40,150 nucleotides of DNA from contig JADWMG010000002.1 in the NCBI GenBank assembly GCA_015767405.1, positions 1 through 40,150 on the forward strand, in the 5' to 3' direction. Below the pieces are notes generated by a model that worked only from the letters and a program-made list of their open reading frames with translations, searched no databases and had not been told where the DNA came from. Positions 9,901 through 29,036 of this stretch are shown one piece after another. Source of the DNA: Actinomycetota bacterium. GTDB lineage: Bacteria; Actinomycetota; Acidimicrobiia; Acidimicrobiales; Ilumatobacteraceae. The stretch's first letter is position 1. Each line of letters begins with the position of its first letter. Made by a program: the position numbers and the translations under genes.

Positions 9901-10279
9901 CGGTCGCTATTGCCTCAGCATTGGCCCCAATCATCTCGGGCGTGCCCGCGACGCCAACCAGACCTCGCTCGAAGAGTTCCATTGCCAGGTTCAACCCGGT
10001 CTGGCCACCAAGTGTCGGAAGCACGGCATCGGGTTGTTCACGTTCGATAATTGCTGCCAGAACCTCCCAGGTCAGCGGCTCGATGTACGTGGCGTCGGCA
10101 AAATCCGGATCGGTCATGATCGTTGCCGGGTTCGAGTTGGCAAGGATTATTCGATATCCCTCCTCACGCAGTACACGGCACGCCTGCGTACCCGAATAGT
10201 CGAATTCACACGCCTGCCCGATCACAATCGGGCCCGACCCGATGATCAGAATCGATTCGATGTCAGTGCGCTTCGGCAT
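6974..10279 (-). CDS. carB: Carbamoyl-phosphate synthase large subunit
   Basis: 1101 aa; [42 protein letters not shown], duplicated ATP-grasp halves. Confidence 0.99.
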
Positions 10280-11397
10280 CAGCGACCTCCAGTTCCGGCA
10301 AGCATCTCGGCAAACTGATCGAACAGGTAGTTCGAATCGTGTGGACCGGGGTTGGCCTCCGGGTGGTGCTGCACGCTGAAAGCCTGCTCACCGGTCACTT
10401 GAAAGCCCTCGCAAACACCATCGTTCAGGTTTACGTGTGTCATCGTGGCCTTACCACGGAGCGAGTCGGGGTCGACCGCGAAGTTGTGGTTCTGACTCGT
10501 GATCTCGACGCGATCGGTCAGAAGATTCTTGACTGGATGATTTCCGCCGTGGTGGCCGAATGGCAGCTTCACCGTTCCGGCACCAATCGCTTGACCGAGT
10601 AGCTGATGGCCGAGGCATATCCCGAATATCGGAACGTTGCCGAGCAACGCGCTGATCGTCTCCACGCCGTATGGCGCCATCTCCGGATCGCCTGGACCAT
10701 TGCTAAGAAAGACACCTGCGGGGTCACGGGCGAGGATGTCACTCGCTGTGGTCGTGGCGGGTACGACCTCGACCGCCCCAAACCGGGCAAGATTGTGCGC
10801 AATGTTGCGCTTCATGCCGAAATCGATAGCCACGATTCGGATCTTGTTATCGGGGTCGAGACAGTCCACCGTGTAACTCTGCGGCACCGTCACCTCTCTG
10901 ACCAGGTCAATACCGTCGGTTCCCGGCTCAGCGATTGCCGCCGTGAGCAGCTCTTGTTCGCCAATTGAGCCGAAAGCCCCCGGCATCGCGCCGGTTTCAC
11001 GTAACAGCCGCGTGAGACGCCGAGTGTCGATTCCGCTGATCCCAGGCACGCCGTTCTGTTCGAGCATCGAACCGAGGTCGCTGTCGGCTCGGAAATTGGA
11101 GTGGCGGCGAGCAAGTTCGCGTACGACCACTCCGCGGCAGAATGTTCCGCGCGATTCCATGTCGGTTTCATTGACTCCGTAGTTGCCGATGTGCGGCGAT
11201 GTGAACGTGATGATCTGCCCGGCATAGCTCGGGTCGGTGATCACTTCCTGATAGCCGGACATCACGGTGTTGAACACGACCTCGCCAGTGGCCACCTGAC
11301 GCTCCGCGCCGATCAGCTCGCCCTCGAAAACGCTGCCATCTGCGAGAACCAGCGCTCCCTCGCTCACCGCTGCTCTTGATCCGCCTCGTCCGCTCAT
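10279..11397 (-). CDS. carA: Carbamoyl-phosphate synthase small subunit (start revised from ORF-track 11760)
   Basis: Homologous region starts [30 protein letters not shown]; glutaminase motif [15 protein letters not shown]. The upstream 121 codons of the listed ORF overlap pyrC and a hairpin repeat. Confidence 0.95.
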
Positions 11398-11434: not shown

Positions 11435-11481
11435 TTTGTGTCAGCAGATACCTGTGACGCAGCGGTTTGTGCTGACACAAA
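11435..11481 (-). repeat. 47-nt hairpin element, copy 1 (inverse orientation to copies 2 and 3)
   Basis: Plus strand TTTGTGTCAGCAGATACCTGTGACGCAGCGGTTTGTGCTGACACAAA; reverse complement matches copy 3 at 42/47 positions by manual alignment. Confidence 0.93.
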
Positions 11482-11548
11482 CCGAGATAGGTGGCCGGAC
11501 TGGGCCGTTTCGGGTGATGCATAGTCATCCAGGATAGTGGATGTTGAT

Positions 11549-12835
11549 TCATTTATCTTGGAGCTTTCCGTCGATGACGACCGCGTCGCCATTGAAAATG
11601 GTGTGTCTGACCCGTCCTCGCAGCGGGATACCAACGTATGGCGTGTTGTGACTCTTGCTCGCCAGCTGGGCCGGAACGACTTCCCACTCGGTCGACGGAT
11701 CGAAGACAGTGAGGTTGGCCGGTTCACCAGGTTCGACCGGGCGGCCGTGGCGATCGGCAATTCCCGCGATCGCGGCAGGCTTCCAGGACATGGCCGCGAT
11801 TACGTCGACAAGTGGCATCTCGAGATGCGCAAGCGCAACACCGAGTGCCGTTTCGAGACCGATCATTCCGGGGGGCGCTTGATCGAGTGGCCGCTCCTTG
11901 GACTCCGGCACGTGAGGGGCATGGTCGGTGGCGATTGCATCAATCGTCCCGTCGGCGAGCCCGTCGCGAACCGCGGCCAGATCTTGGGGTGTACGCAACG
12001 GAGGGTTGACCTTGTAGAGCGCGTTGTACGAGGCCAGTAGCGAGTCGGTGAGGCTGATGTGGTGCGGCGTCGCCTCAGCGGTGACTGGCAACCCGGCGCC
12101 CTTGGCCGCGCGCACCAGGTCGACGCTGCCCGCTGTCGACAAATGAAGAAAGTGAGCACGAGCGCCGGTCAACCTGACCAGTTCGATATCACGGTGGACC
12201 ATCAACTCTTCCGCCAGCGACGGCCACCCCGGCAAACCCAATTTGCTGCAGCACTCCCCCTCGTGCATTACCGCTCCGGCCGTCAGCGATTCGACCTCAC
12301 AATGCTGGGCAAGGGTCACGTCGAGATCACTCGCGTATTCGTAGGCACGACGCATCAGAAGCGGGTCCTGGACGCCGTTGCCGTCATCGGTGAACAATCT
12401 GACCCCCGCATCGGCCAACTCTGCGAACGGCGTGAGTTGTTCCCCCGCACGTGAGACCGTGATCGAACCGGATGGCGAGACCTCACACCAACCAGCACGC
12501 TCGCCCTGACGGCGGACGAAGTCGACCACCTCGACGGAATCTTGTGTGGGGTCGGTATTGGGCATCGCAACAACCGCCGTGAACCCGCCAAGGGCGGCGG
12601 CTCTGCTTCCCGTTTCAATCGTTTCGGCATCCTCACGTCCCGGTTCGCGTAGATGCACGTGAAGGTCAACGAAGCCCGGGCTGAGAACACAGCCTGAGGC
12701 ATCTAGCACGCGATCTTGATCATTTCTGGAGAGATCGGGCCCAACCTCGACAATGAACCCATCGTTCACACGCACGTCGCCCCGCCGCTCGCCATTCTGA
12801 TCGATGACTCTGGCCCCAGTGACGAGATAACTCAT
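11549..12835 (-). CDS. pyrC: Dihydroorotase
   Basis: GFVDLHVHLREPGREDAETIETGSRAAALGGFTAVVAMPNT; IATDHAPH. Confidence 0.98.
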   Translation of the reverse strand: MSYLVTGARVIDQNGERRGDVRVNDGFIVEVGPDLSRNDQDRVLDASGCVLSPGFVDLHVHLREPGREDAETIETGSRAAALGGFTAVVAMPNTDPTQDSVEVVDFVRRQGERAGWCEVSPSGSITVSRAGEQLTPFAELADAGVRLFTDDGNGVQDPLLMRRAYEYASDLDVTLAQHCEVESLTAGAVMHEGECCSKLGLPGWPSLAEELMVHRDIELVRLTGARAHFLHLSTAGSVDLVRAAKGAGLPVTAEATPHHISLTDSLLASYNALYKVNPPLRTPQDLAAVRDGLADGTIDAIATDHAPHVPESKERPLDQAPPGMIGLETALGVALAHLEMPLVDVIAAMSWKPAAIAGIADRHGRPVEPGEPANLTVFDPSTEWEVVPAQLASKSHNTPYVGIPLRGRVRHTIFNGDAVVIDGKLQDK

Positions 12836-13818
12836 TCGCTACTTCCTTCCAATGTGTCTGCGGACCCGTGCCCGGAACCTAGGAGTTCGAATAGCACTGC
12901 CATCCGAACCGCGATCCCGTTGGAAACCTGCTGTGTGATCACGGCACCCGGAAGTTCGGCTGGATCAACTGCGATCTCGACTCCACGATTCATCGGCCCC
13001 GGGTGCATCACCAGCGCGTTCTGTTTGAGTCGTCCAGCGCGCTGCGGTGTGAGCCCGAACCGAGTTGTGTACTCGCGCAGACTCGGTACCAGTGCCTCGT
13101 TCATCCGCTCGCTTTGCATCCGAAGGAGATACAACACGTCCACATCGTCAATCAGTGCATCCAGGTTCTCCGATGTCGGCTCATCGACGACCGGCGGCAA
13201 CAACGTTCGTGGAGCAACAAGTGTTACATCCGCGCCCAGTAGCCGGAAGACAGCCGATGTACTGCGCGCGACGCGACTGTGCTTCACATCGCCGACGATG
13301 GCGATACGGAGCCCTTCCAGACCTCCCGTTCGATTCAGCGTGGTGCGCACGGTATAGGCGTCGAGCAAAGCCTGGGTCGGATGAGCGTGCCAGCCATCGC
13401 CGGCGTTGATGACGCTGGCCTGCGTCCACTTGTCGACCATCCACGGTGCCCCACTCGAACCGTGCCTGATGACGAAAGCGTCGACACCCATCGCGGCAAT
13501 TGTTTCGATGGTGTCACGCAGGCTCTCGCCCTTGTTGAGGCTCGACTGGGCAACTGAGAAAGTCATCGTGTCGGCCGACAACCGCTTTGCGGCAGTCTCG
13601 AAGCTGAGTCGTGTTCGGGTCGAGTCTTCGAAGAACACGTTGCACACTGTCTTGCCGCGAAGAGCCGGAACTTTCGGATTTGGACGCCGGTTGACTTCGA
13701 CCATGTGGTCAGCCAGGTCGAGGATACGAAACACCCCGTCGGTGCCGAGTTCGTCGATTGACAGCAGCGACCGCGACCCACGTGGACCCGCACTCTGTCG
13801 CTGTTCGACCGAAGTCAC
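12832..13818 (-). CDS. pyrB: Aspartate carbamoyltransferase catalytic subunit
   Basis: [49 protein letters not shown]. Confidence 0.98.
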
Positions 13819-14366
13819 GAAATCACGACGCCGTCGGAAGTTACTGACACACTTTCATCACCGCTGGTCGGCAAGTTCTTACCGACGTAGTCGGGCCGGA
13901 TCGGAAGCTCTCGATGCCCTCGATCGATGAGTACGGCTAGTTGCACGGCTCTGGGCCGACCATAGTCAGCAATCGCATCCAGCGCTGCTCGAACCGTTCT
14001 TCCGGTGAAGAGCACATCGTCGACCAGCACGACTGTTACGCCATCGATGTCGAACTCGAGTTCGCTCACCGATCCCGGTGCTACGGGCCGGAGTCCGATG
14101 TCGTCGCGGTACAGGCTGGCATCAACCGAGCCGACTGGGACAGATGCGTGGCCAGACTCTCGGTCTTCGATGCGAACGATCTCCGCCCCTAGCGCTTTGG
14201 CCAGCCAGACACCGCCGCGCTGAATTCCAACCAAGACAACGCCGTCAAGGCCCCGATTGCGCTCGATGATCTCGTGAGCCATCCGTGTGGTCGCTCGACG
14301 GACATCTCCAGGTTCAAGTACTCGCTTGGATGCGGGGGCAGCACCGGCCCGTTGTTCGTCAGGCAT
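13815..14366 (-). CDS. pyrR: PyrR bifunctional regulator/uracil phosphoribosyltransferase (start revised from 14480)
   Basis: [51 protein letters not shown] motif [20 protein letters not shown]. Confidence 0.94.
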
Positions 14367-14368
14367 TC

Positions 14369-14398
14369 TGTCCTTTCCGTATGGGCCTCTCCGGACCC
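14369..14398 (-). promoter_or_regulatory. Putative PyrR-binding-loop hairpin overlapping the pyrR Shine-Dalgarno region
   Basis: Minus strand GGGTCCGGAGAGGCCCATACGGAAAGGACA directly before ATG at 14366; resembles the known PyrR loop core (UCC-AGAGAGG-C..AGGA). GUCC/GGAC can pair, occluding the AAAGGA ribosome-binding site. Confidence 0.7.
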
Positions 14399-14476
14399 GC
14401 TTCACGGTCGTTCCGCAACGTAGCAGCAACTCTCCACGCGCGAGACATGGCTGAACGCTTCGTTGGAAACTTTTTG

Positions 14477-16096
14477 TCAATCCATGGACAACGGCTCGAT
14501 GTCGGTGCCGCCGGCGGGCAGCTCGACCGACCTGTCACGCACGTACAGCACCCACCGCTCGTTCCGGCCGACCTCGTCAAACGCGTCGGCGATCGCGTTC
14601 CAGTCGGCAACCAGCTGATCATCACGGCTGGTTGGCAGCATCACGTATTCGACGCCATCAGCTCGCGCTCCGAGACGCGACCCTTCGAGCGACGCGTCGG
14701 GCCCGTACAACACCAGTCGGAACGGAGTCGGAAACTGATAGATCTCACGTCGGTGTGCCAGGTGTGGGGTCAGACGGTAGTGAGCAGCCACGCTCGCGTT
14801 GGCTGGAATCTCATCGATCAGCTCGCGCGCTGTTACGGAGTATTCGTTGTTCGGATCGCCGTAGTACAGAGCGTTCCGCCCCCATGGGACAGGTGACCAC
14901 ATGAACGCTGTGACCATCGTTGTTGCCGCGAGAACAATTACGGCGATCAGCCGCACGGGAACTGCGATTGTCAGGCCTTCTTGCACTGAGACGCGTCGGT
15001 CACGCATCGCCCCGATCGCGTACACGGTACCGATGGCAAGGGCGGGCACGGCCACCAAGCTGTAGTGATAAGCAACCTGATATTGGTACCAGAACGTGCT
15101 CAGAACATTGGTGAAAAGTACGAGCGCGCTGATCATGGCTACATCGGGCAGCCTCGCGAAGAGCCAAGCAAAAGGTGCCGTCATCTGCCAGAGGTACCAC
15201 GGACGATCATCGCTGCGTAGATGGTCGACCAGATCGGTGGGGTTCGTGATTGCGGTGTCGATCACTCCCCTGGGTCCGCCGAACGGGATCCGCCACCCGT
15301 TCCGGGTCGGCACCCCTATGAGGCTGCGCATCACCAACAGCATCGCCACAGCCATGAAGGCAAGCGAACCGAAGATTGTCAGCAGGCCAATCCGGCGATC
15401 TCTTCTCAGTGCCACCCAGATGCCGAGCGGAACGATCACGAGAGAGACGTCTTCTTTGACGAGCAGAGAAAGAACAACGAACGTGGCGTACAGACGCCAC
15501 CTGGACTCGAGCGCGAAATAGATCGCGAACCCCACGAACACACCTAGAAAGGAATCAGGGTGGAAATTCTCCAGATTCGCCCAACCAACCGCTGGATGCA
15601 GGAGGTACACCCCTGCCCCTACGAGCGCCAACCATTCCGATTCGAGCCGACGACGACCGTACAGAAAGACAGGAATCGCTCCAGCCGCGATCGCTGCCGC
15701 CTGCGCAAAAAACATTGTCCCGGCTGCCGGAAACAACCAATACAGGGGCACCAGGAATAGAAGGACGAGGGAGGTGTGGTCGCCAAGGAGATTCCGCCCC
15801 ATCAGGGTGACGAACGGCGCATCGAAGCGAGAGAGCAGCCATATGCCCTGGTCGTACAGACCGGAGTCATATGAAGAGGTTCCGAGTGAGTGGTGGATGT
15901 CGAGGGACCGCTTCGTGAAGTACCACGTCCACGTACTCAAGGCGATAGCCATGAGGATCTGCGGAACCGTGGGCCATCGGAGATTGAACGGCCTCACCGG
16001 ATTCGGGTTGTTCTCCCCGCTCTGTTCTACCTCAGGGTCGCCTCCCGCGATGAGACCGGCCTCAGCGGTCTCGTCGATGGTGGTCGACTCGGACAT
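14477..16096 (-). CDS. DUF2079-like multi-pass membrane protein
   Basis: Many hydrophobic segments; [58 protein letters not shown] is typical of DUF2079. Likely start MSESTTIDE at 16096. Confidence 0.8.
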
Positions 16097-16100
16097 TCCC

Positions 16101-16508
16101 CTACTTTCGCAGGTCGTCGACCAGCGCCGACAGCACACCGTTCACGAATCGCCCGCTGTCATCGGTGGAGAACCGCTTCACAAGCCCTACCGCTTCGTCC
16201 AAGACCACAGCCACAGGGACGTCCGGCCGCTCCATAAGCTCGAATGCACCAAGCCGGAGCACGTTCAGATCGAGCACCGGCATCCGCTCGAGCGTCCACC
16301 CCTTCGCACGATGTGCAATTGCAACGTCGAGGCGGTCCTGATGTTCCTCAACTCCCTTGACCAACAGGGTCGTCAGCTCATCCGGTTCAAGTACCTGTAT
16401 TGAGAGCGCGTCAGAGGGGGCGATCGCCTTGGAATGAGCTTCGTAGAGCAGATAGAGGGCGCGCTCGCGCGCGTCTGATCGTTCATCTGGGCGCGGCATC
16501 GTTGGCAT
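16101..16508 (-). CDS. nusB: Transcription antitermination factor NusB
   Basis: RERALYLLYEAHSK.., DLNVLRLGAFELMERPDVPVAVVLDEAVGLVKRFSTDDSGRFVNGVLSAL. Confidence 0.95.
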   Translation of the reverse strand: MPTMPRPDERSDARERALYLLYEAHSKAIAPSDALSIQVLEPDELTTLLVKGVEEHQDRLDVAIAHRAKGWTLERMPVLDLNVLRLGAFELMERPDVPVAVVLDEAVGLVKRFSTDDSGRFVNGVLSALVDDLRK

Positions 16509-16535
16509 TGTGTCGTACTCGTTCCGGGAACTTGT

Positions 16536-17099
16536 TCAGACCCGGGTGATGTAGTCGCCGGATCGGGTATCGACCTTGATCTTGTCGCCGATCTCGACGA
16601 ACAGCGGGACCTGCAACACCTTGCCCGTTTCGAGTGTCGCTGGCTTACGGGCACCGGAAACTCGGTCACCTTGCACTCCGGGTTCTGTCTCGCTGATCGT
16701 GAGTTCTACCGAGGCGGCAATATCGACACCGATGATTTCACTCTGGTACATGGCGATTTGGGCAATCATCTGTTCGGTCAAGAAGTTGGCGGCATCGCCT
16801 AGAGCGACGGGCGGGACGTTCATCTGGTCGTAGGTTGTCGTGTTCATGAACACGTAGTCGTCGCCGTCCTTGTAGAGAAACTGCATGTCTTGACGATCAA
16901 TGATTGCCTGCTCGACCTTGATCCCTGCATTGAATGTTTTGTCGATGACCGCTCCGGTGCGAACGTTGCGAATCTTGGTGCGAACGAATGCGCCACCTTT
17001 TCCGGGCTTGACGTGCTGGAACTCGACGACCTGGAACAGGCCGTTGTCGAGTTCGAGCGTGATTCCGTTCTTCAACTCATTGACGGAGATCTGCGGCAT
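16536..17099 (-). CDS. efp: Elongation factor P
   Basis: [46 protein letters not shown]-terminal [12 protein letters not shown]. Confidence 0.98.
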
Positions 17100-17114
17100 G
17101 TTCGGTCCTTACGG

Positions 17115-18281
17115 TCAGTTGGGGTGGTCACTTGGGGCTGTTGTCTGGCTGTGCCCCGGAAATGGTCGCTGGGGCGTGTGCGTCAGCACACGCGACCCTT
17201 GCTCGGTGACGACGAGGAGGTCCTCGATCCGGAATCCACCGAAGTTGCCACGATAGAGGCCAGGTTCGATGGTCACCACGTTCCCCACCTCGATGAGATC
17301 GTCGGAAGCCTGGGAATGGAACGGGGGTTCGTGGATGTCAAGGCCGACGCCGTGACCGGTTCCGTGAAGGAACCAGTCGCCATAGCCTGCGTCGTCAAAG
17401 ACTTCGCGGCAGGCTGAGTCGATCTCTTTCGCCGTACTTCCGGCACGCAACGCATCGATTCCGGCTCGATGGGAGACCTCCACAAGTGCGTAGATCTCTC
17501 GTTGCTGCTCTGTCGGCTCGCCGATCACGTACGACCGAGTCATGTCGGAGTGATACCCGTCAACCAGTGCTCCTACGTCGACGATGACCGTGTCACCGTC
17601 GACGATCGTGCGCCGGCTCACTTCATGATGGGGGCGCGCAGCGTGCTCAGGGCCGGTGGCGACGATCGTTTCATAGCTTCTGTCGTCGGCCCCGTGCATT
17701 CGCATGCGGTATTCGAGCTCGTTGCGGACGTCGGCCTCTGTTATCGGCGCATCGCCCGCTCCGAGCAACATCGGCTCGACCTCTAGTAGAGCTGCATCTG
17801 CGGCACCCGCGGCGGCCTCGATTCGAGAAAGCTCAGCTGCATCCTTTATTCGCCGCGCTTTCTTCACGGGCGATGCCAAGGGAAGGAGATCAAGCTCTTT
17901 GGCGAGAGCAGACCACTCGGAGTGCGAGGTCATCGCTGGGTCGAGGGCGACCGAAGACGCACCTCGGAGAGCCTCCAAGAGCCGTTCGTGAAGTCGAGAT
18001 CTCAACTGCTCGGCGAAGACCGTCGCACCGCTGCCCACCGATTCGGTGCGGGCCCGCTCGCCGTATCGACCATCTGTGCCGATGACCAGCTCATCGCCGC
18101 GCAGCACCACCCATCCATTGGATCCGCCGAAGCCGGTCAGCCATCGGATGTCGACCAGATCGGTGAACAGCCATGCCCCATCCTCCGATTCCTGGAGCTG
18201 AGAACGGAGTAGGTCGACTCGGCGCGCCCTGTCGATCGTCGGGCATGAGACAGCGGGGTCAGACCCTCGCGTCTCATTCAT
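17115..18281 (-). CDS. M24-family Xaa-Pro aminopeptidase/dipeptidase
   Basis: VIVDVGALVDGYHSDMTRSYVIG, HGTGHGVGLDIHEPPF, NVVTIEPGLY; located between aroB and efp. Confidence 0.93.
   Translation of the reverse strand: MNETRGSDPAVSCPTIDRARRVDLLRSQLQESEDGAWLFTDLVDIRWLTGFGGSNGWVVLRGDELVIGTDGRYGERARTESVGSGATVFAEQLRSRLHERLLEALRGASSVALDPAMTSHSEWSALAKELDLLPLASPVKKARRIKDAAELSRIEAAAGAADAALLEVEPMLLGAGDAPITEADVRNELEYRMRMHGADDRSYETIVATGPEHAARPHHEVSRRTIVDGDTVIVDVGALVDGYHSDMTRSYVIGEPTEQQREIYALVEVSHRAGIDALRAGSTAKEIDSACREVFDDAGYGDWFLHGTGHGVGLDIHEPPFHSQASDDLIEVGNVVTIEPGLYRGNFGGFRIEDLLVVTEQGSRVLTHTPQRPFPGHSQTTAPSDHPN
18255..18266 (-). repeat. GGGTCTGACCCC palindrome inside the M24-peptidase 5' end
   Basis: Plus strand GGGGTCAGACCC; same 12-mer as the intergenic palindrome at 27017-27028. 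Confidence 0.6.
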
Positions 18282-19300
18282 TGCACGAAACGGGCGAGAG
18301 CAGTACGCACGGCAACTTCATCCACATCGTTCACGACCTCGACCCCGTCTGGGCCATCGAGCGCGAAGGTGAGACCGTTGAGAGCCTTCTTGTCGCGACG
18401 CATGAGTCGCACGAGTTCATCGATGTCGACACCGGCAGGCGGAGTAGCCATAAGGCCATACTCCTCGCCGACAACGCGGCGATGTTCGTCGACGCGGGCC
18501 TGCTCGACACGTCCCAGCTCGAACGCCAATTCGGCCGCATAGATCAGTCCGATCGCCACTGCTTCACCGTGCGCCAACTGATAGCCGGAAGCTATCTCGA
18601 GAGCATGAGCAAGGGTGTGGCCATAGTTGAGGAGGGCTCGGCGACCCCCCTCGCGTTCATCCGCTGCCACAATCTCCACCTTGATCTCGATGCATCTGGC
18701 AATGCGCTGCTCGAGATCCATCGACAACAGATCGTCACCCGTGAGAAAGTTGTACTTCGCCATTTCACCGAGACCACAGCGAGTCTCACGCGGAGGAAGA
18801 GTGCTCAGCGCGCTCAGATCACACACGACTCCGCTCGGCTGCCAGTACGCGCCTACGAGGTTCTTGCCCTCGGGCAGGTTGACACCGGTTTTGCCGCCGA
18901 TTGCAGCATCAACCATCCCGAGCATCGTGGTGGCAACGTGGACCACGGGCGTTCCTCGGTGCCATGATGCAGCCGCAAAGCCGGCAACATCAGTGACCAT
19001 CCCGCCCCCGACTCCGACGATCAGGTCATGGCGGGTGATCCCCTGTTCGGCAAAGCCCCTCGTGAGCGTCTCGATCGTTGCGAGCGATTTGGATGATTCG
19101 CCTCGGCCGATGAAATAGGTCTCGACATCGAACGTCGGAAGCGCCCATCCTGACGGGATCCCCTCTTGGGTCACGACTGCAATTCTCTTTGTTCCATCGG
19201 GAACCAGCGACTCGAGTTGGTTGATCGCGCCGTACCCGACGACGACGTCATACGATCGGTCGACCGATCCCCCGGTCAGAGGAACCCTCACCCGCAGCAT
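18278..19300 (-). CDS. aroB: 3-dehydroquinate synthase
   Basis: VGVGGGMVTDVAGFAAASWHRGTPVVHVATTMLGMVDAAIGGKTGVNLPEGKNLVGAYWQP. Confidence 0.98.
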   Translation of the reverse strand: MLRVRVPLTGGSVDRSYDVVVGYGAINQLESLVPDGTKRIAVVTQEGIPSGWALPTFDVETYFIGRGESSKSLATIETLTRGFAEQGITRHDLIVGVGGGMVTDVAGFAAASWHRGTPVVHVATTMLGMVDAAIGGKTGVNLPEGKNLVGAYWQPSGVVCDLSALSTLPPRETRCGLGEMAKYNFLTGDDLLSMDLEQRIARCIEIKVEIVAADEREGGRRALLNYGHTLAHALEIASGYQLAHGEAVAIGLIYAAELAFELGRVEQARVDEHRRVVGEEYGLMATPPAGVDIDELVRLMRRDKKALNGLTFALDGPDGVEVVNDVDEVAVRTALARFVQ

Positions 19301-19845
19301 CGCACCACGGCCTTCGCCACGTCGACTACCGAGCGGTTGTCAACAGACACCATGGCATCAGCAACTTCTCGATAGAGAGGTTCGCGATCCTGAGACATTT
19401 GTCGCAGCTTTGTTTCAGGATCATCGTCGAGCAGCGGCCGATGCACTCCGTTGCGGACCCGATCGAGCAGCAACTCGATATCCAGCATCAGCCAGACAAC
19501 ATGGGCGTCGGAGTCGATCAACAGTTGTCGGTTTCTGCCACTGAGTACCACTCCACCTCCTGTCGCTATCACCGACGGTTCATCCCGCTCAAGACTGTCG
19601 AGGAGTGTCTGGGTCTCCAGTTCCCGAAAGGCGGGCTCACCGTCGAACTCCCAGATCTCGCGGATTGTGCGCCCAACTCGTTCCTCGACCATTTCGTCCG
19701 AATCAAACAGCGGACGTTCGAGGCGCGATGCCAGCGTCCGCCCCACCGAAGACTTCCCAGACCCCATCATTCCGACGAGCACGATATGTGAGCGGTCGAG
19801 GGTCTTCCCTTTCCGCTCCACACCAGTCCCGGGCGCCTTCATCAC
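19288..19845 (-). CDS. aroK: Shikimate kinase
   Basis: [63 protein letters not shown]. Confidence 0.97.
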
Positions 19846-21011
19846 GACAAGGATGCGTTGAACGCCTCGGCGTTACGAACAAACTCGTCGACCGAGTCGC
19901 CACCAAACTTCCGTTGCGCCTCCCCGGCCAGGACCAGCGCGACCATTGTCTCAGCCACGACACCCATCGCTGGCACCGCCGTGACATCGGTTCGTTCCTT
20001 GAACGACACCGCCGATTCTTTGGTAGCCGTGTCGACAGTCTCGAGCGTTGGCACGTTGAGCGTCGCCAGCGGCTTCATCGCAGCCCGAACGACAAGGAGT
20101 TCGCCGGTCGAAATGCCGCCCTCGGTGCCCCCTGCGAGGGTGCTGCCACGCCGATACTCGAGAGCATCGGGGTCCCACGAGATGGGATCGTGCGCAGCAC
20201 TTCCGCGCCGAGCTGCGACCTCGAAACCGTCACCGATTTCGACGCCCTTCACGGCCTGGATACTCATCACCGCCTGGGCGAGAAGTGCGTCGAGTTTGCG
20301 GTCCCAATGCACGTGGCTACCGAGGCCAACCGGGACCCCGAATCCGAGCACCTCGACGACACCTCCGAGTGAATCACCGTCTTTGGCAGCAGCCTTGATC
20401 TCGGAAATCATCGCTTCGCTCGCATCGGAATCGAAGCAGCGGACTGGGCTGTCGTCGACACGAGCCAACTGATCAGGGGTAGGGCGATCTGCCGACGAGG
20501 AGACGCGAGCTGTACCCATCTGAATCACATGGGAGATGATCTCGACTCCGAGCGGTTGCAGCAGCGCTTTCGCAACAGCACCAGCGGCGACTCGGGCGGC
20601 CGTTTCACGGGCACTCGCTCGCTCAAGAACATCGCGCGCATCCGTGAACCCGTACTTCTGCATCCCGGCAAGGTCTGCGTGCCCCGGACGGACCTGCGTC
20701 AGCGGTTCTTTTGTCTGGCCAGGGGCTGGGTCCATCTCCTCGTGCCACTTGTCGCTGCGGAACCACTCGGTGTTCTTGATTTCGATCGCTACTGGAGAAC
20801 CCAGCGTGCGGCCATGGCGAACACCGCCGATCAAGGTGAGGTCGTCGACCTCGAATTTCTGACGCGGGCCCCTGCCATATCCAAGTCGACGACGGCTCAT
20901 TTCAGCCTGGATCTGCTCAACCGTGATCTGCAGACCCGCCGGCAGACCTTCCATCACGACAACAAGGCCTTGACCGTGAGATTCACCCGCCGTGAGATAC
21001 CGCAACATCAA
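19842..21011 (-). CDS. aroC: Chorismate synthase
   Basis: [83 protein letters not shown]. Confidence 0.98.
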
Positions 21012-21018
21012 GCCGAGA

Positions 21019-21852
21019 CTACCGTGAGCCGAGTTCGGCTTCGGCAGCGATTCGCATCACTGAGGCATCGGGCCTGACTCCCAGCCAACGCTCCTGCTGC
21101 AGAACTGCCTGTTGAATCAGCATCCCCAATCCATCAATCGTCCGCGCGCCCAGATCCGCTGCCTCGCTCAGCCAGGAAGTCCGCAGCGGGTGGTAAACGA
21201 GATCGACGACAACATGGTTGCCACGCAACAGCGAAGGGTCACACGGAAAATCGTTCCCGGTTGCCGTAGCGGGAGAAACGCCCATACCGATGCTCGTCGC
21301 GTTGACCACGATGTCGGCCTGACCGATATCGCTGGCTATCCCAACCGAGGCGACTCCTGCCAGCGTTGCCGCACTCTCCGCACGGTCCTGGGTGCGATTG
21401 ACAATGCTGATCTCGATTGCCCCCGCCCGCCCGAGAGCGTCGATCACAGAACGCGCAGCACCCCCCGCGCCAATGACGGCGACGCGCGTACCGGCGACAT
21501 CTACACCTTCTTCGTTGAGTGCGGCGACGAAGCCGGCGCCGTCTGTGCTTGACCCGACAAGATCGTCACCCTCCCAACTGACGGTGTTAACCGAGTGCAG
21601 TGCTCTGGCGGCAGGCTCGAGACGGTCGACGGCCGCCGCGACATCGGCCTTGTGCGGCATCGTGACGGACAATCCTGCGATGCCGAGCACGCGCATCGCG
21701 TGGATCGCATCCTCAGCGCGGCCTGGAGCGACCTTGAACGCAACGTACGACCAGTCGACGCCTGCCTCCTCGAACCCGGCACGGTGGATAGCCGGAGAAA
21801 GGCTGTGGTCGACGGGAGATCCGATCAATGCAGCCAAGGACCCCCAAGTCAC
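21019..21852 (-). CDS. aroE: Shikimate dehydrogenase
   Basis: [55 protein letters not shown]. Confidence 0.96.
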
Positions 21853-23087
21853 AGGAGGCCTGCAGCCCGTGCCAGTTCGACGTTAGCGACATGCTGTTCG
21901 GGCGTTGCCGCGAAGACGTGGCTGCCATCTTCGTCAGCAAGGACATAGAACAGGTAGAAGCACTCCGACGGCTTTTCGAGCACCTTGCAAATCGGGTCAC
22001 CCGGGGCCGGATTCGGCGCTGGATTCAGAGCAGCGCGGATCGCCGCCCGCCCAGGGCTGGCGATCGGGGTCGGGGGTAGGCCTGTTCGTAAATAGGTGTT
22101 GTACGGGGTGTCGATCTGACGCAGTTCGGAGAATGGCAATTCCGGATCAATTCCGGCCTGGTCCCGGCCGTAGTACACAGACGCGTCGACCTGCAACGGG
22201 ATCGGGTTCTCTGGGTTGAACGCCGAAAGCAGCAGCCTGTTGTGGATCACTCGTGAGATCTTGTCCCGATCCTCAGGCACCTTCGCCTCGCGCTCGATCA
22301 GCGACGCAATGACCAATGTTTCGTATGGGGTGCGCCCAAGTGCGGCCGACTTGTTGACAATATCTTCCTGGTCGCCAACGCGCTCCATGAGGGCAATCAT
22401 GCGCTCGATGACCTGGCCCTCGCTCTCGGCGTTGGAGACCTGATACGTGTCGGGGAACAACATCCCCTCCAGTGATGAACTCCCAATTGGTTGCCACTGG
22501 GAACGGATCGTGCTGTCGCCAGAAACTGCCATGAAGTCTTCAGCACTCATGCGATCAACTGTCGCATCGAGCCGGAAGGCCATCTTTTCGAACGTGAAGC
22601 CCTCGGGAAATGTCACCTTGGAATAGGTCTGGCTCGGCGGAGTGCGCAAGCGGCCCAACACGTTCCCCATGTGGTCATTCGGGCGGAGTTCGTAGTAACC
22701 GGGCGTAATCTCCAGACCACCTTCTCGCTCTACGTACCAGCGGAAAACACCGGCGTCAGAAACGAGACCTTCATCCACGAGTCGCAACGACAACGATTCG
22801 AGATTGTCGGTCTCGTCGACTGTGAAGCTCTGAACGTCGCCAGGTGCACCCTCCGGGTTGATCTTGCCGACATACCACCATCCGACCGCACCGGCGATCA
22901 AGACGACCGCAATGCCCACGACCATTGACAGGTAAACGATCCATTTGATCGGGCGCGTCTGACGACGCAATCGCTCGACGGAGCCCGTCTGGTCGGTCTC
23001 GTCCCAAGGATCTGCCGGCCAGTCAAGAGCCGGCCGGTCGTCTGGATCGACCTGCGCCTCTGGTAGCAGCGGATCCAGCTGCTTCAC
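21849..23087 (-). CDS. mltG: Endolytic murein transglycosylase MltG (YceG-like)
   Basis: N-terminal TM segment; YELRPNDHMGNVLGRL, LEGMLFPDTYQV, VIASLIEREAKVPEDRDKISRVIHNRL, YNTYLRTGLPPTPIASPGRAAIRAALNP. GTG start at 23087 preferred over 23135. Confidence 0.95.
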   Translation of the reverse strand: MKQLDPLLPEAQVDPDDRPALDWPADPWDETDQTGSVERLRRQTRPIKWIVYLSMVVGIAVVLIAGAVGWWYVGKINPEGAPGDVQSFTVDETDNLESLSLRLVDEGLVSDAGVFRWYVEREGGLEITPGYYELRPNDHMGNVLGRLRTPPSQTYSKVTFPEGFTFEKMAFRLDATVDRMSAEDFMAVSGDSTIRSQWQPIGSSSLEGMLFPDTYQVSNAESEGQVIERMIALMERVGDQEDIVNKSAALGRTPYETLVIASLIEREAKVPEDRDKISRVIHNRLLLSAFNPENPIPLQVDASVYYGRDQAGIDPELPFSELRQIDTPYNTYLRTGLPPTPIASPGRAAIRAALNPAPNPAPGDPICKVLEKPSECFYLFYVLADEDGSHVFAATPEQHVANVELARAAGLL

Positions 23088-23560
23088 GATGGTGCACCGG
23101 CGCCGGGCCAGGTATTTCGGCGGTGCTCGAGCCAAGCCTGCAGCATTACAGCGGCGGCCACTTTGTCGACGACCTTTCGGCGAGCTTGCGCGTTGAGCCC
23201 CGCCTCGATCATCCCGCGCTCGGCGGTGACCGTCGTGAAACGCTCGTCGTACATCTCTACTGGCACTCCCGCGACGTTAGCGAGCTGGCGGGCCTCTGTT
23301 GTGGCAGCCTTGGCCGCTTTTCCGTGGCTGCCATCGAGCGACAATGGAAGGCCAACCACAACCACTTCGGCCTCCTCGACGCGTACCAGTTCGGCGATTG
23401 CAGCATGGTCGTGACGCCGAGACTTCGAACGGTGCACCGTTGTGAGAGCCGAAGCAATTGTCCCAGAGGTGTCGCTCACCGCGATCCCGATTCGTTTTGA
23501 ACCCAGGTCGACCCCTAGCGCACGGACACCTGGCGGTCGACCGTCGCTCAGCGATGTCAC
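23084..23560 (-). CDS. ruvX: Putative Holliday junction resolvase (YqgF/RuvX)
   Basis: RALGVDLGSKRIGIAVSD, VVVGLPLSLDGSHG, YDERFTTVTAERGMIEAGLNAQARRKVVDKVAAAVMLQAWL. Confidence 0.95.
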   Translation of the reverse strand: MTSLSDGRPPGVRALGVDLGSKRIGIAVSDTSGTIASALTTVHRSKSRRHDHAAIAELVRVEEAEVVVVGLPLSLDGSHGKAAKAATTEARQLANVAGVPVEMYDERFTTVTAERGMIEAGLNAQARRKVVDKVAAAVMLQAWLEHRRNTWPGAGAPS

Positions 23561-26175
23561 GTTAGGGCGGCGAGAACCTCTGCCGCGGCGGTGGCTGCAA
23601 GACCAAGTGCATCCGGGATACCAGCGATGTCTTTGCCGCCAGCGGTAGCTATGTCACCCTTGCCGCCCCCACCGCCGCCGACTGCCTTCGCCGCCGACTT
23701 GAGCAGAACGGACGCAGGCTGCGGGCTTCCAGGTGGAACCGCGGCTACCAAGCCGACCCCGCCGGTGTTGGTTTCGCCGATCAGGACCACAATTCGAATC
23801 TCAGGTTGCTGGCGCACAGCGGCTGCCAACTCACGTAGCTCGCCCGGGCTCAGCCCATCGACTTGCGTGATAACGACGCCGTCGTGAGCGATCGCTGCCA
23901 GTTCGCTCGCGCGCCCCATCGCCAGTTGACTGCGAAGGCCCTTGATTTCGTCATTCAGCACCTTCATCTCGTCGAGCTTGCGCTGAACACCAGCCAGCAA
24001 ATCGTCGGATTGTGTCCCGACGAGACGTGCAGCGTCAGTCAGCAGTTGTTCGTCACGCTGGAGCAGCGCGACACTTTCCTCACCGGTTATTGCTTCGATC
24101 CTGCGGAGGTTCGAGCCGATCGACGACTCACTGATCACCTTTATCGTGCCGATGTCACCGGTTGCTCGCACATGCGTACCGCCACACAGTTCGGTCGATG
24201 ACCCGGCCTCGAGGACACGCACGATGTCTCCGTACTTGTCGCCGAAGAACGCGATGGCCCCGAGCGATTCCGCTTCGTCCTTGCTTGTTTCGAAAACGCG
24301 TGTGGGAGTGTTGGCGAGCGTCTCGAGGTTGGCCAGGCGCTCTATCTCCTCGATCTGGTCCTGGCTGACCCCCTCGTAGTGGGAGAAGTCGAACCGCAGC
24401 CGGTCAGGGCCGACCATCGAACCGGCCTGCTTCACGTGCTCGCCCAGAACCTGACGCAAGGCATGATGCAGGAGGTGCGTCGCTGTGTGGTTTCGCCGAA
24501 TCGAGGCACGCCGGGGGATGTCTATCGAAGCGGTGGCCACCTGCCCTGAGGTAATCGTGCCAGAGATGACGCGGCAGCGATGACGGCGCAGGTTTGGAAG
24601 CGCGAACGTCGAGTCGAGCACATCAGCCGTGCCGGTTTCGGTGCCGATTATCCCAGTGTCTCCGACCTGGCCACCGGATTCCGCGTAGAACGGCGTGCGG
24701 TCGAGGAAAATCTCAACCTCACCTTCGGGCCCTTCAGGACCTTCGGTTACTGCCAACACCCGACACTCAGCGGTGTCGACCTCGTAGCCGACGAACTCGG
24801 TGATCCCGAATTGCTCCATGATCTCTCGATACCCATCGAGGCTCGCTGCGTCGACGCCGCCCTTCTGAGCTGCCTTCGCTCGCTCACGCTGGTCGGTCAT
24901 GTTTTCGTCGAACTCGTCGAGGTCCACACCGACATCACGTTCCGCGGCGATCTCCTGTGTCAATTCAAGTGGGAATCCATAGGTGTCATGGAGGAGAAAG
25001 GCAGTTGAACCGGAGAGCTCTTCTGCATCGTCTTCCAACTCGGTTTCGAGGATTGTGAGACCGTTCTTGAGGGTTTGCCGGAACCGCTCTTCTTCCTTGG
25101 TCATCACGCTCACCACGAAGTCACGGTTCTTCACGATGTCGGGATACGCATTACCCATGACATCGATTGCGGTTTCGGTGAGCCGTGGCATTACGAGCTT
25201 GTCGGTGCCGAGCATGTACGCGTAGCGGACCGCGCGGCGGATGATTCGGCGCAGCACATAGCCGCGCGCTTCGTTTGACGGAAAGACGCCGTCGTTGATC
25301 AACATCGCCCCGGAACGGGCATGTTCGGCCAACACTCGCATGGCAAAACTGTCGCGATCTTCGTAGTCGCCAACCCGGTACGACTTGCCGGTGATAGAGC
25401 ACGCCTCTTCGATCAGCGGCAGCATCAGGTCGGTTTCCCAAACCGAATCGACATTCTGAACCAGCGCCAGAATCCGTTCTAGACCGGCCCCGGTATCGAT
25501 CGACGGCTTGGGCAATGGCGTACGCGTGCCGTCGGGTGACTGGTCGAACTGCATGAAGACGAGGTTCCAGAACTCCATGAAACGGTCGCCCGCAGGGTCG
25601 CCCAGTGGGCCTCCCTCGGGACCAAAAGATGGACCGCGATCGATATGTAGTTCGCTGCAGGGCCCGCACGGGCCGGTGTCGCCCATCTGCCAGTAGTTGT
25701 CGGCGTCGCCAAGCCGCTGGATCCGATCCATCGGGACACCGACTATCTCGTGCCAGATCGCCTCAGCTTCATCGTCGGACTCATGAACGGTGACCCACAG
25801 TTGGTCGCCGTCGAAGCCCCACTCTTCGGTGACGAGATCCCAACTCCAAGGGATCGCCTTCTCCTTGAAATAGTCGCCGAAGCTGAAGTTGCCCAACATC
25901 TCGAAGAACACCAAGTGACGCTTGGTCCGTCCGACGTCGTCGAGGTCGTTGTGCTTGCCCCCAGCCCTGGCACATTTCTGCGAGTTGACTGCCCTCTTGA
26001 ACGGCGGTTTCTCGTCACCGACGAAGTACGACTTGAACGGCACCATTCCTGCGACGTTGAACAACACGGTTGGGTCGTGCGGGATCAAACTGGCCGAGGG
26101 CACAATCGTGTGTTCCTTCTCGGCGAAGTACTCGCAGAACGAATCGCGGAGTTGATCGGCGGTCATCGACTTCAT
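23557..26175 (-). CDS. alaS: Alanyl-tRNA synthetase
   Basis: FCEYFAEKEHTIVPSASLIPHDPTVLFNVAGMVPFKSYF; HTATHLLHHALRQVLGEHVKQAGS; ELCGGTHVRATGDIG. Confidence 0.99.
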   Translation of the reverse strand: MKSMTADQLRDSFCEYFAEKEHTIVPSASLIPHDPTVLFNVAGMVPFKSYFVGDEKPPFKRAVNSQKCARAGGKHNDLDDVGRTKRHLVFFEMLGNFSFGDYFKEKAIPWSWDLVTEEWGFDGDQLWVTVHESDDEAEAIWHEIVGVPMDRIQRLGDADNYWQMGDTGPCGPCSELHIDRGPSFGPEGGPLGDPAGDRFMEFWNLVFMQFDQSPDGTRTPLPKPSIDTGAGLERILALVQNVDSVWETDLMLPLIEEACSITGKSYRVGDYEDRDSFAMRVLAEHARSGAMLINDGVFPSNEARGYVLRRIIRRAVRYAYMLGTDKLVMPRLTETAIDVMGNAYPDIVKNRDFVVSVMTKEEERFRQTLKNGLTILETELEDDAEELSGSTAFLLHDTYGFPLELTQEIAAERDVGVDLDEFDENMTDQRERAKAAQKGGVDAASLDGYREIMEQFGITEFVGYEVDTAECRVLAVTEGPEGPEGEVEIFLDRTPFYAESGGQVGDTGIIGTETGTADVLDSTFALPNLRRHRCRVISGTITSGQVATASIDIPRRASIRRNHTATHLLHHALRQVLGEHVKQAGSMVGPDRLRFDFSHYEGVSQDQIEEIERLANLETLANTPTRVFETSKDEAESLGAIAFFGDKYGDIVRVLEAGSSTELCGGTHVRATGDIGTIKVISESSIGSNLRRIEAITGEESVALLQRDEQLLTDAARLVGTQSDDLLAGVQRKLDEMKVLNDEIKGLRSQLAMGRASELAAIAHDGVVITQVDGLSPGELRELAAAVRQQPEIRIVVLIGETNTGGVGLVAAVPPGSPQPASVLLKSAAKAVGGGGGGKGDIATAGGKDIAGIPDALGLAATAAAEVLAALT

Positions 26176-26199
26176 GAGATGTCCGATACACGGGTCAGG

Positions 26200-27015
26200 A
26201 TGATGCTGGTCATATCGATGGCGATCCTATCGACGCCTGTAGCTTCCCTCGGAGTGAGTTCCAGTACACACAGTCCCGACGACATCCACGAGTGGGTCAG
26301 CTTCGAAGATCCGGCTGAGCATCGTACGTGGCTCTTCGACGCCACGTACCTGGCATCGAACTACATGTGCATCTACGGATGTGGTTGCAAGGGCATACTC
26401 GATGAACCGTCGACAGATCTCCAGCAAGGGTGTTGCAGCTATGGCGCACATTTCGCCGACAAGGCTGATGTGAAGAACCTGAAACGGCATGCGGAGCGCG
26501 TCAAGCCTGAACACATGCAGTTCCATGCCAAAGCTCGCAAGAAGGGCTACCTTCGCCCTGGCGACCCTGACGACGACGGCAAACCGACGACAAAGACGCG
26601 GCTCGTGGACGATGCTTGCATCTTCCTGAATCGACCGGGCTTCAAGGGCGGAGTGGGCTGTGCGCTGCACATTGCGGCGCTCGATGCAGACGAACGGCCG
26701 CTCGATTGGAAACCCCAGGTGTGTTGGCAGGTTCCTATCCGCCTCGAGCACTCAACCGATGAATCCGGCCATGTGACATCGCGTCTGCGTGAGTGGAAAC
26801 GCCGCGACTGGGGCAAAGGTGGCAGCGAGTTCGGCTGGTGGTGTACCGAGGAAGCGGAAGCATTCGTCGGCAGCGAGCCGCTCTATCGCTCTGCACGCGA
26901 AGAGATCATCGAGTTGATTGGCGAGGCCAATTATCGCGAGATGGTGGTGCTGCTGGAACGCCCGGACTGGGTTGCGCTCCCGCACCCGGCGGTACGACGC
27001 TCGAACATAACGTGA
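26200..27015 (+). CDS. Uncharacterised cysteine-rich protein, possible metal-binding (start uncertain: ATG 26200 or GTG 26254)
   Basis: Conserved-looking Cys motifs YMCIYGCGCKGIL..QGCCSYGAHF..DDACIF..GGVGCALH..QVCW. The listed ORF from 25750 extends antisense into alaS, so a later start is chosen. Confidence 0.75.
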   Translation: MMLVISMAILSTPVASLGVSSSTHSPDDIHEWVSFEDPAEHRTWLFDATYLASNYMCIYGCGCKGILDEPSTDLQQGCCSYGAHFADKADVKNLKRHAERVKPEHMQFHAKARKKGYLRPGDPDDDGKPTTKTRLVDDACIFLNRPGFKGGVGCALHIAALDADERPLDWKPQVCWQVPIRLEHSTDESGHVTSRLREWKRRDWGKGGSEFGWWCTEEAEAFVGSEPLYRSAREEIIELIGEANYREMVVLLERPDWVALPHPAVRRSNIT

Positions 27016-27028
27016 GGGGTCTGACCCC
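27016..27028. repeat. GGGGTCTGACCCC palindrome immediately after a stop codon
   Basis: 6-bp perfect arms around a central T, followed by ACCGTTACGGT (27030-27040), a second perfect short palindrome; lies between convergent genes. Confidence 0.65.
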
Positions 27029-27039
27029 AACCGTTACGG

Positions 27040-27240
27040 TCAGTCGTCGGCTGGGTCGTCGTCGTCGTCGAAGGTGACGCCGTACTTCTCGGCCAGAGCC
27101 GCGTACTCGTCGTCTTCGCTGGGTTCGCTCTCGCCCTCTGTTGAGGCAGAGCGATCGCCAAAGCCCAAATCAAAGGCTCCTGGGCCGGACTGCTTCAGTT
27201 TTCTCGCCTCTTCGAATCGGCGATGACGACCCTTCTTCAC
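27040..27240 (-). CDS. Small uncharacterised protein (66 aa) with basic N-terminus and acidic C-terminus
   Basis: MKKGRHRRFEEARKLKQSG..DDEYAALAEKYGVTFDDDDDPADD; sits in a coding-length gap and keeps actinobacterial codon character. Confidence 0.65.
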   Translation of the reverse strand: MKKGRHRRFEEARKLKQSGPGAFDLGFGDRSASTEGESEPSEDDEYAALAEKYGVTFDDDDDPADD

Positions 27241-27327
27241 GACAGGGCTCCCACACTAGAAATCTGACAACGGGCAGCAATTGTACCGGCATGGGCAGGC
27301 ATTTCGCGGGCATTCCGCAAGCAACGC

Positions 27328-28503
27328 TCAATCGGACACAGAGATCAAGCGCAACCGGCCCTGACCGTCGAATGTAAGGCCTGCTTCTCCACCAACGAGG
27401 CGACGAATACCGTCGCCCAACAATTCAGATCGCCATCCGGTCGCCAATCGGGCATCTTCGTCTTCACGAAGGAACGCCACGATGTCAGAACGCGTCGCCA
27501 GTAGGGCTGTGTCGAGCTTCTCATCCCGGGCGAGTTGGCCAACCCAAGCCGAGATCAAGGTGATCGCCGGACGCAGATTCCGGTCGAGATCGTCAGCGGA
27601 CGGAGGGCTCGGAGGGGGTTCGGACTCTTTTCCCTGTCGAACCGCTTCGAGAATCTCCTCGGCCATGCCGCCTCGTGAATGGCGCTCATCGATACCGCGG
27701 GCCTGCTTCAACTCCTTCGCGGTGGTCGGCGCCCGCTGCGACACCCCAAGGATCGCTAGGTCGGGCAATACCTGACGCACTGGAATATCGACTCTCATTG
27801 CTCGACGCTCGCGCCATGCTGCGACCGAGCGGGCGACAGCGCGCGCACCGGGCCGTAACGATCGGGCATCTTTGAGACGCAACCACGCGTCGTCCGGTAC
27901 CGAACCACTCACGGGCCGGGTTCGGAGTTGTTCACATGCATCTTCGGCCCAGGTCAGACGCTCGGCATCTGTGAGCTGTTCGATGAGAGAATCATGCAGC
28001 TGTAGGAGATACTCGACGTCGACCGCGGCGTACTGGCGCTGATTGTCAGTGAGCGGCCGACGTAACCAGTCGGTCAAACGATCGCCCTTGGCGGGAGTGA
28101 CCCCGACTTCGCCCTGAAGCAAAGACACGAGGGACGGCGTTCCGTAGCCAACAAAACCTGCCGCAAGTTGAGTGTCGAACATCTGCCGAGGAACCGAGCC
28201 AACAGCGTGCGTCAGAACATCGAGGTCCTGCTGGGCGGCATGGATGACGCAAAGCGAATTCGACGCGAAAAGCGCGTCGAACACCTTGACGTCGACAGCC
28301 AGCGGGTCAATCAGCGCAGTCTCCTGGCCATCGCCGGTCGACCAGGCGACTTGCATCAACGCCAGCCTCGGGTAGTAAGTGCGTTCACGGTGGAACTCGG
28401 TGTCGAGGGCGTACCGAGGCTCGTCGATCAGTGTGTCGATGATCTTGTCGAGATCATCTTGCCGATCGACCCATCGATAGTCGATCGGGCCCGGTCGTTG
28501 CAT
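27328..28503 (-). CDS. rnd: Ribonuclease D (HRDC-containing 3'-5' exonuclease)
   Basis: YALDTEFHRERTYYPRLALMQVAW, LCVIHAAQQDLDVLTHAVG, RPLTDNQRQYAAVDVEYLLQLHD. Confidence 0.95.
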   Translation of the reverse strand: MQRPGPIDYRWVDRQDDLDKIIDTLIDEPRYALDTEFHRERTYYPRLALMQVAWSTGDGQETALIDPLAVDVKVFDALFASNSLCVIHAAQQDLDVLTHAVGSVPRQMFDTQLAAGFVGYGTPSLVSLLQGEVGVTPAKGDRLTDWLRRPLTDNQRQYAAVDVEYLLQLHDSLIEQLTDAERLTWAEDACEQLRTRPVSGSVPDDAWLRLKDARSLRPGARAVARSVAAWRERRAMRVDIPVRQVLPDLAILGVSQRAPTTAKELKQARGIDERHSRGGMAEEILEAVRQGKESEPPPSPPSADDLDRNLRPAITLISAWVGQLARDEKLDTALLATRSDIVAFLREDEDARLATGWRSELLGDGIRRLVGGEAGLTFDGQGRLRLISVSD

Positions 28504-28516
28504 TTCTCCTCGGCGG

Positions 28517-28891
28517 TCACTCACCGTTTGCACCAGGGTCCATGTTGAGACCCGCTTGTTCCCAGGCCATCATCCCGCCGACGACGTTTACGACCGCGCG
28601 GCCCTGAGCCGCTGCAAAGGCACACGCTCGATCGCTGCGCCCCCCGGACCGACAGATCACGTACGTGGGCGATCCATCGAACTCCTCGATTCGATCTGGA
28701 ACAGTGCTGAGTGGGATGTGGACCGCATGGGCAAGGTGCCCGCCAGCCCATTCCGCAGGCTCGCGCACATCGACGAGCACGATCTCGGGCCCGAGTGCCG
28801 CGAGATCGTCGACCGAGATCTTCGAATTTTTCACGGTTTCGAGGCTAGCCCGCCCCATCCCATTGCTGGCTGATACGAGGTGCCCAGCCAC
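28517..28891 (-). CDS. Rhodanese-like domain protein
   Basis: VLVDVREPAEWAGGHLAHAVHIPLSTV..YVICRSGGRSDRACAFAAAQG..VVGGMMAWEQAGL; exact start uncertain. Confidence 0.9.
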   Translation of the reverse strand: MAGHLVSASNGMGRASLETVKNSKISVDDLAALGPEIVLVDVREPAEWAGGHLAHAVHIPLSTVPDRIEEFDGSPTYVICRSGGRSDRACAFAAAQGRAVVNVVGGMMAWEQAGLNMDPGANGE

Positions 28892-28903
28892 GGCCGGGCA
28901 AGA

Positions 28904-28950
28904 TTTGTGTCAGCAGAAACCGGAACGCCAACGGTAAGTGCTGACACAAA
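28904..28950 (+). repeat. 47-nt hairpin element, copy 2
   Basis: TTTGTGTCAGCAGAAACCGGAACGCCAACGGTAAGTGCTGACACAAA; 41/47 identical to copy 3 by manual alignment. Confidence 0.93.
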
Positions 28951-28964
28951 AAAGGAAGTCACGT

Positions 28965-29011
28965 TTTGTGTCAGCGCAAACCGGTGCGCCACAGGTAAGT
29001 GCTGACACAAA
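28965..29011 (+). repeat. 47-nt hairpin element, copy 3 (tandem with copy 2, 14-nt spacer)
   Basis: TTTGTGTCAGCGCAAACCGGTGCGCCACAGGTAAGTGCTGACACAAA. Confidence 0.93.
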
Positions 29012-29036
29012 TCTTTCTGGCGGGGAGCGTCGGCGG

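Follow-up and report, generated by a model that had tools for sequence, protein, structure and literature searches.

Lineage-restricted 47-bp extragenic palindromes with a kept internal loop in an Ilumatobacteraceae-related actinobacterium, and a family of the same plan in its sister species

A family of short extragenic palindromes is dispersed in the genome of a bacterium related to Ilumatobacteraceae (Acidimicrobiia), and its members are probably lineage-specific, non-autonomous elements of the REP/BIME type that are recognised as folded single strands. The genome, G000, is a MAG of 3.35 Mb (89.5% complete, 3.9% contamination), and the window, that is, the whole stretch of 40,150 nt that was analysed, is its contig C311. 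Three copies lie in the window where the preliminary description had placed them, each exactly 47 nt long and with the exact arms TTTGTGTCAGC...GCTGACACAAA, for which shuffles expect 0 occurrences. As had also been proposed, the copy at 11435 is oriented opposite to the other two, judged from its asymmetric core. The reported identity of 41-42 out of 47 positions holds for two of the three pairs, whereas the copies at 11435 and 28904 agree at 38/47 (81%). The sites are intergenic and frame 1 of some copies is interrupted by stop codons, so a coding explanation was rejected, in agreement with the earlier view that no coding gene accounts for the copies. The tandem pair at 28904-29011 has a rhodanese-domain gene on one side and a mobA-like gene on the other. 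The features are as follows, with the strand given where a feature has one.

10279-11367, minus strand: carA, neighbour of the element at 11435..11481
11435..11481, minus strand: 47-bp element, single copy, between the pyrC-like gene and carA; orthologous copy in the same-genus relative G001, none in the sister species G002
11435..11445: near-invariant 11-bp arm, partner 11471-11481
11447..11449: internal loop side, element positions 13-15, other side 11467-11469, from anti-pairing across copies and the predicted fold
11471..11481: near-invariant 11-bp arm, partner 11435-11445
11549-12835, minus strand: pyrC-like (dihydroorotase-like) gene, neighbour of the element at 11435..11481
28840..29033: approximate segment with the tandem pair, found in G000 only in the three-genome alignment
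28904..28950, plus strand: 47-bp element, first of the direct tandem pair
28904..28914: near-invariant 11-bp arm, partner 28940-28950
28916..28918: internal loop, element positions 13-15, other side 28936-28938
28940..28950: near-invariant 11-bp arm, partner 28904-28914
28951..28964: 14-nt spacer of the tandem pair, one of the two preferred lengths (14 or 25)
28965..29011, plus strand: 47-bp element, second of the direct tandem pair
28965..28975: near-invariant 11-bp arm, partner 29001-29011
28977..28979: internal loop, element positions 13-15, other side 28997-28999; position 13 can pair here, 14-15 cannot
29001..29011: near-invariant 11-bp arm, partner 28965-28975

The suggestion that these three copies belong to a larger dispersed family was borne out by a genome-wide search with the same arms, in which the interior was at first allowed to vary from 20 to 30 nt and the reversed pattern served as control. 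In G000, 44 copies have perfect arms, and the interior of each of these measures 25 nt; the number rises to 73 at no more than three arm mismatches, every copy being of 47 bp; the reversed pattern gave 0 matches genome-wide. Among the 40 relatives of G000 covered by the search, only G001 (73% complete) possesses the family, with 10 copies, and one further genome of the family gave a single match with three mismatches, which is chance-like. In public genomes the element was found in MAG DC_out45, which is labelled Ilumatobacteraceae and whose contigs match G001, and as one isolated copy in an Acidimicrobiales MAG. Searches of viral contigs, phages and plasmids gave no matches, and an origin from such sequences was rejected.

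The placement of the elements was compared with that of the genes, which were called with our own codon-usage model. At the 40 sites with two called neighbours in G000 and G001, the flanking genes are convergent in 18 cases, codirectional in 19 and divergent in 3, compared with 23, 71 and 31, respectively, for intergenic gaps longer than 40 nt in the same stretches (element sites included). Element edges lie mostly 17-60 nt from a stop codon, mainly 3' of genes, and these are varied housekeeping genes. Many copies also occur in tandem: neighbours have the same orientation in 29 of 32 cases, and in G000 the gaps between them are 14-15 nt (11 cases), 24-25 nt (17 cases) or of other lengths (four cases). 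The spacer sequence shows no conservation between sites, and the interiors of neighbours are more alike than those of random copies (6.3 vs 10.0 differences). The 47-mers resemble the REP/BIME sequences of E. coli (y, z1, z2), Pseudomonas and Stenotrophomonas, which are likewise short, multi-copy, species-specific imperfect palindromes with an intergenic, 3'-biased location, arranged in tandem clusters with preferred spacers and keeping a mismatch within the stem. The length of 47 nt falls within the 20-50 nt usual for REP palindromes capable of stem-loop formation.

The arm also occurs by itself in short tandem repeats with a period of ~16 bp (TTTGTGTCAGC plus 5 nt); these adjoin elements at L078:2912-2960, L019:2988 and L085:537-565 and are perhaps remnants of slippage or deletion. 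Perfect solo arms were found only there, beside elements, and half-sites resembling uptake signals were therefore rejected. Integron attC sites were rejected as well, since on inspection the arm motif of the 47-mers has the wrong layout for them.

The anatomy of the element was derived from the 70 of 73 copies in G000 whose sequences were examined individually. The 11-bp arm hardly varies among the resulting 140 half-sites, the sole common change being A to G at position 9, and A16 is invariant. The interior is highly variable, with about 10 of its 25 positions different between random copies. The core is asymmetric, which allows each copy to be oriented; once all copies are read in a common direction, C26 and T32 never vary and A27 and G30 hardly do. 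The two halves of a copy mismatch each other at positions 13-15 more often than expected, with 2.01 mismatches versus 1.52 under random pairing of halves (z 5.0 when distinct copies are counted, z 3.8 when each site contributes a single copy). In agreement with this anti-pairing, an independent count in an alignment of 39 copies placed covariation below all 500 shuffles. The excess of mismatches suggests a folded form with a 12-bp stem, an open 3x3 internal loop at positions 13-15, and then the pairs A16-T32 and C17-G31. A mismatch or bulge kept within the stem is also characteristic of group 2 REP sequences, and the predicted DNA folds of the copies have z of about -4 to -6.

Location and strong predicted folding would also suit RNA hairpins in 3'-UTRs that terminate transcription or stabilise mRNA ends, with sites mostly 17-60 nt past stops and often between convergent genes. 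The preliminary description had allowed for a structured RNA, and the sequences speak against it at several points. Compensatory changes do not exceed chance at any pair in the 70 copies read. At codirectional sites, the stem mismatches as read on the mRNA strand are G-U in 12 cases and A-C in 13, so RNA pairing does not appear to be selected. The carA-pyrC site, where this was tested, and the window copies, whose sequences were inspected, have no U tract, and the 47-mer matches no Rfam family. Finally, the arm sequence is constrained far beyond structural need, and we regard a role as RNA hairpins as quite improbable.

The main rival explanation is that the elements act in duplex form: a host protein with sequence-specific DNA binding, such as a nucleoid, partition or gyrase-like factor, would occupy each 47-bp near-palindrome as a dimer or tetramer, and neighbouring sites would cooperate through helical phasing. 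Position-specific conservation in each half, not accompanied by compensation, is consistent with it, and so are the gaps between paired copies, 14 or 25 bp here and 11 or 22-23 bp in the sister species, about one turn apart. These spacers suit a double-stranded DNA complex equally well and count to that extent against recognition of a folded strand. Comparison of orthologous sites bears on the same question. Three sites have an element in both G000 and G001; each has kept its arms intact or almost intact, though the interiors and the surrounding intergenic DNA differ. Such preservation is as expected of host protein sites, and it also counts against our preferred reading in that neutral, passively decaying repeats would not keep their arms in diverged intergenic DNA. 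Other sites differ in the presence of the element. The carA-pyrC copy, present in G000 and G001, is missing in G002. The 28904-29011 pair is missing in both G001 and G002, where the rhodanese-domain gene directly adjoins the mobA-like gene.

G002 belongs to the same genus and has no 47-mers. Screening 207 kb sampled from its genome for hairpin words that recur revealed another family, GATGAGGTT-N21-AACCTCATC, with 93 copies at no more than one mismatch and no copies in the other 24 genomes searched. The arms of these 39-mers are unrelated to those of the 47-mers, yet the blueprint is the same: a fixed length of 39, invariant arms, inner pairs that are conserved (G12-C28 and G13-C27), an asymmetric core, gaps of 11 or 22-23 bp between tandem copies, and a similar location 3' of genes. 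Here too the positions directly inside the arms (10-11) are anti-paired (z 3.4 when each site contributes a single copy). Of the ~93 copies, 58 were examined individually. How the mismatched words are oriented shows no link with the direction of the core in G002, although the numbers are small; the constraint thus seems to act between one half and the other, as it would in a folded strand. A duplex site explains neither the anti-pairing just inside the arms nor its independence of core orientation in G002. Entirely different arms in the sister species, together with the absence of elements at two compared sites, would moreover be unusual for a host factor. Duplex protein sites therefore appear unlikely to us.

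The preliminary description further suggested movement by a REP-associated Y1 transposase encoded elsewhere and recommended a search for an IS200/TnpA_REP-type gene. Such a gene does exist, one each in G000 and G001, next to a sufC-like gene. It has a weak match to the DnaA C-terminal domain, and its best model is the REP-associated tyrosine transposase, below the cut-off; judged by sequence, it fits TnpA-REP subclass 2.1 (TIRYT), which carries a Bac_DnaA_C tail. To either side of the gene lies a different palindrome, of 41 nt, with the G000 consensus CAAATGACACGAAT-GGGGTCWGACCCC-ATTCGTGTCATTTG; the core of this palindrome occurs 48 times in G000, 25 in G001 and 46 in G002. The GGGGTCWGACCCC of these dispersed palindromes resembles the TIRYT repeat consensus, described as GGGG[AT][CG]A[CG] (PMC6006769). 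That survey, from 2018, reported that transposases of this subclass had no REP-like sequences nearby. The 41-nt palindromes are a separate family with an invariant centre; in the 47-mers it is the arms that are invariant, and they do not lie beside the gene.

Mobilisation of the 47-mers by this transposase would agree with the occurrence of the gene in G000 and G001 and with the lack of a full-length counterpart in G002, where 47-mers are missing and only weak partial Y1-like matches were detected. It would also agree with the sharing of TGACAC-RAA (8/9 bases) between the 41-nt repeats of G000 and the 47-mer arm. However, this likeness is absent in G001, where the 41-nt arms differ and the 47-mer arms are unchanged, and we treat it as probably due to chance. 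No 47-mer lies at the Y1 locus within the 6.6 kb read, and the gene has its own palindromes, so by the REPtron criterion the 47-mers are not its repeats; no Y1 gene flanked by a 47-mer was found in G000, which at 89.5% completeness could be missing a second gene. In addition, ~93 equivalent elements are present in G002 without a full-length Y1 match. We consider this gene a highly improbable mover of the 47-mers. What stands of the earlier proposal of a REP/BIME-like mobile family is that the elements are dispersed, intergenic, many-copy and lineage-restricted, with sites occupied in one species and empty in another; movement by this Y1 transposase found no support.

Palindromes of the 41-nt type were also observed away from the gene. 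One with the core GGGGTCTGACCCC is found in the window at 27003-27041 as a member of this second dispersed family, and another lies ~15 nt from a 47-mer pair (L027:2913-3076), so the two families can be neighbours. Long palindromes, each with its own sequence, are seen on both sides of other Y1 loci of the family (L110, L118, L119). In G014, from another genus of the family, perfect hairpins CCGGACGGTTTGTCTCWGAGACAAACCGTCCGG lie on the flanks of a Y1 gene and are present elsewhere in that genome too; the positions noted, flanking and other, are:

L116:987-1019 and 1898-1928
L131:11618
L138:3579 and 14041

Under the preferred reading, in which the 47-mers are recognised as folded single strands, an element exposed on the lagging strand or in a cruciform would fold as a hairpin with a fixed-sequence stem of 11-12 bp, an obligatory 3x3 internal loop, the inner stem A16-T32 and C17-G31, and an asymmetric apical core. 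A sequence-specific protein that processes single-stranded DNA would read the arms and the loop, much as the E. coli transposase TnpA-REP needs the mismatch in the REP stem (PMC8266576). The protein may then insert or duplicate copies in permissive gaps past stop codons, in many cases at a set distance from a copy already present. Single-strand recognition and mobility are what we infer, along with an enzyme that moves the copies, which was looked for and not found.

It is possible, and we propose it tentatively, that the elements belong to an undescribed single-strand DNA system distinct from Y1/RAYT, in which the recognition protein and the arms co-evolve fast, so that sister species acquire unrelated arms, and in which the arms are kept while the 25-base interior diversifies. 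A hint of such a system comes from the end of contig C356 and the start of C415 in G000 (L037:2944-3787 and L039:1-845), where the spacer and immediate flanks are near-identical and the interiors of the two elements differ at ~11 of 50 positions; this is a hint only, as paralogy, gene conversion or strain mixture in the MAG may also account for the difference.

The 47-mers depart from REP/BIME sequences in several respects. The GTAG/GTGG or CGTC tag was not found at the foot of the element in the flank profile, which has only a weak outward C..GG bias, and no cognate RAYT was found. The arms are nearly invariant and the interior highly variable, the tandem pairs are direct with spacers stepped by ~11 bp, and the sister species uses unrelated arms on the same plan. 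Similarly, REPINs, paired REPs that are moved as a unit, share with the 47-mers the doublets with fixed spacer lengths, and two adjacent 47-bp palindromes are predicted to be able to fold into one long hairpin. In contrast to REPINs, the 47-mer pairs are direct by core, their spacer sequence is unconserved, single copies occur, and no RAYT is linked to them. Since form, place and stem mismatch agree with REP sequences and the tag and partner do not, we regard the family as an orphan REP-like variant, not as a member of the REP family.

A tagged palindrome and a partner transposase are commonly regarded as prerequisites of REP-type repeats. In the present case, unrelated repeats built on one blueprint occur in two sister species, with neither tag nor partner transposase. 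The kept internal loop is measurable from sequence alone, and the anti-pairing of halves is a simple statistic that may help to tell folded single-strand DNA sites from RNA structures. If confirmed, these observations would point to a new mover of bacterial repeats, or to REP-like hairpins that are maintained for a host function.
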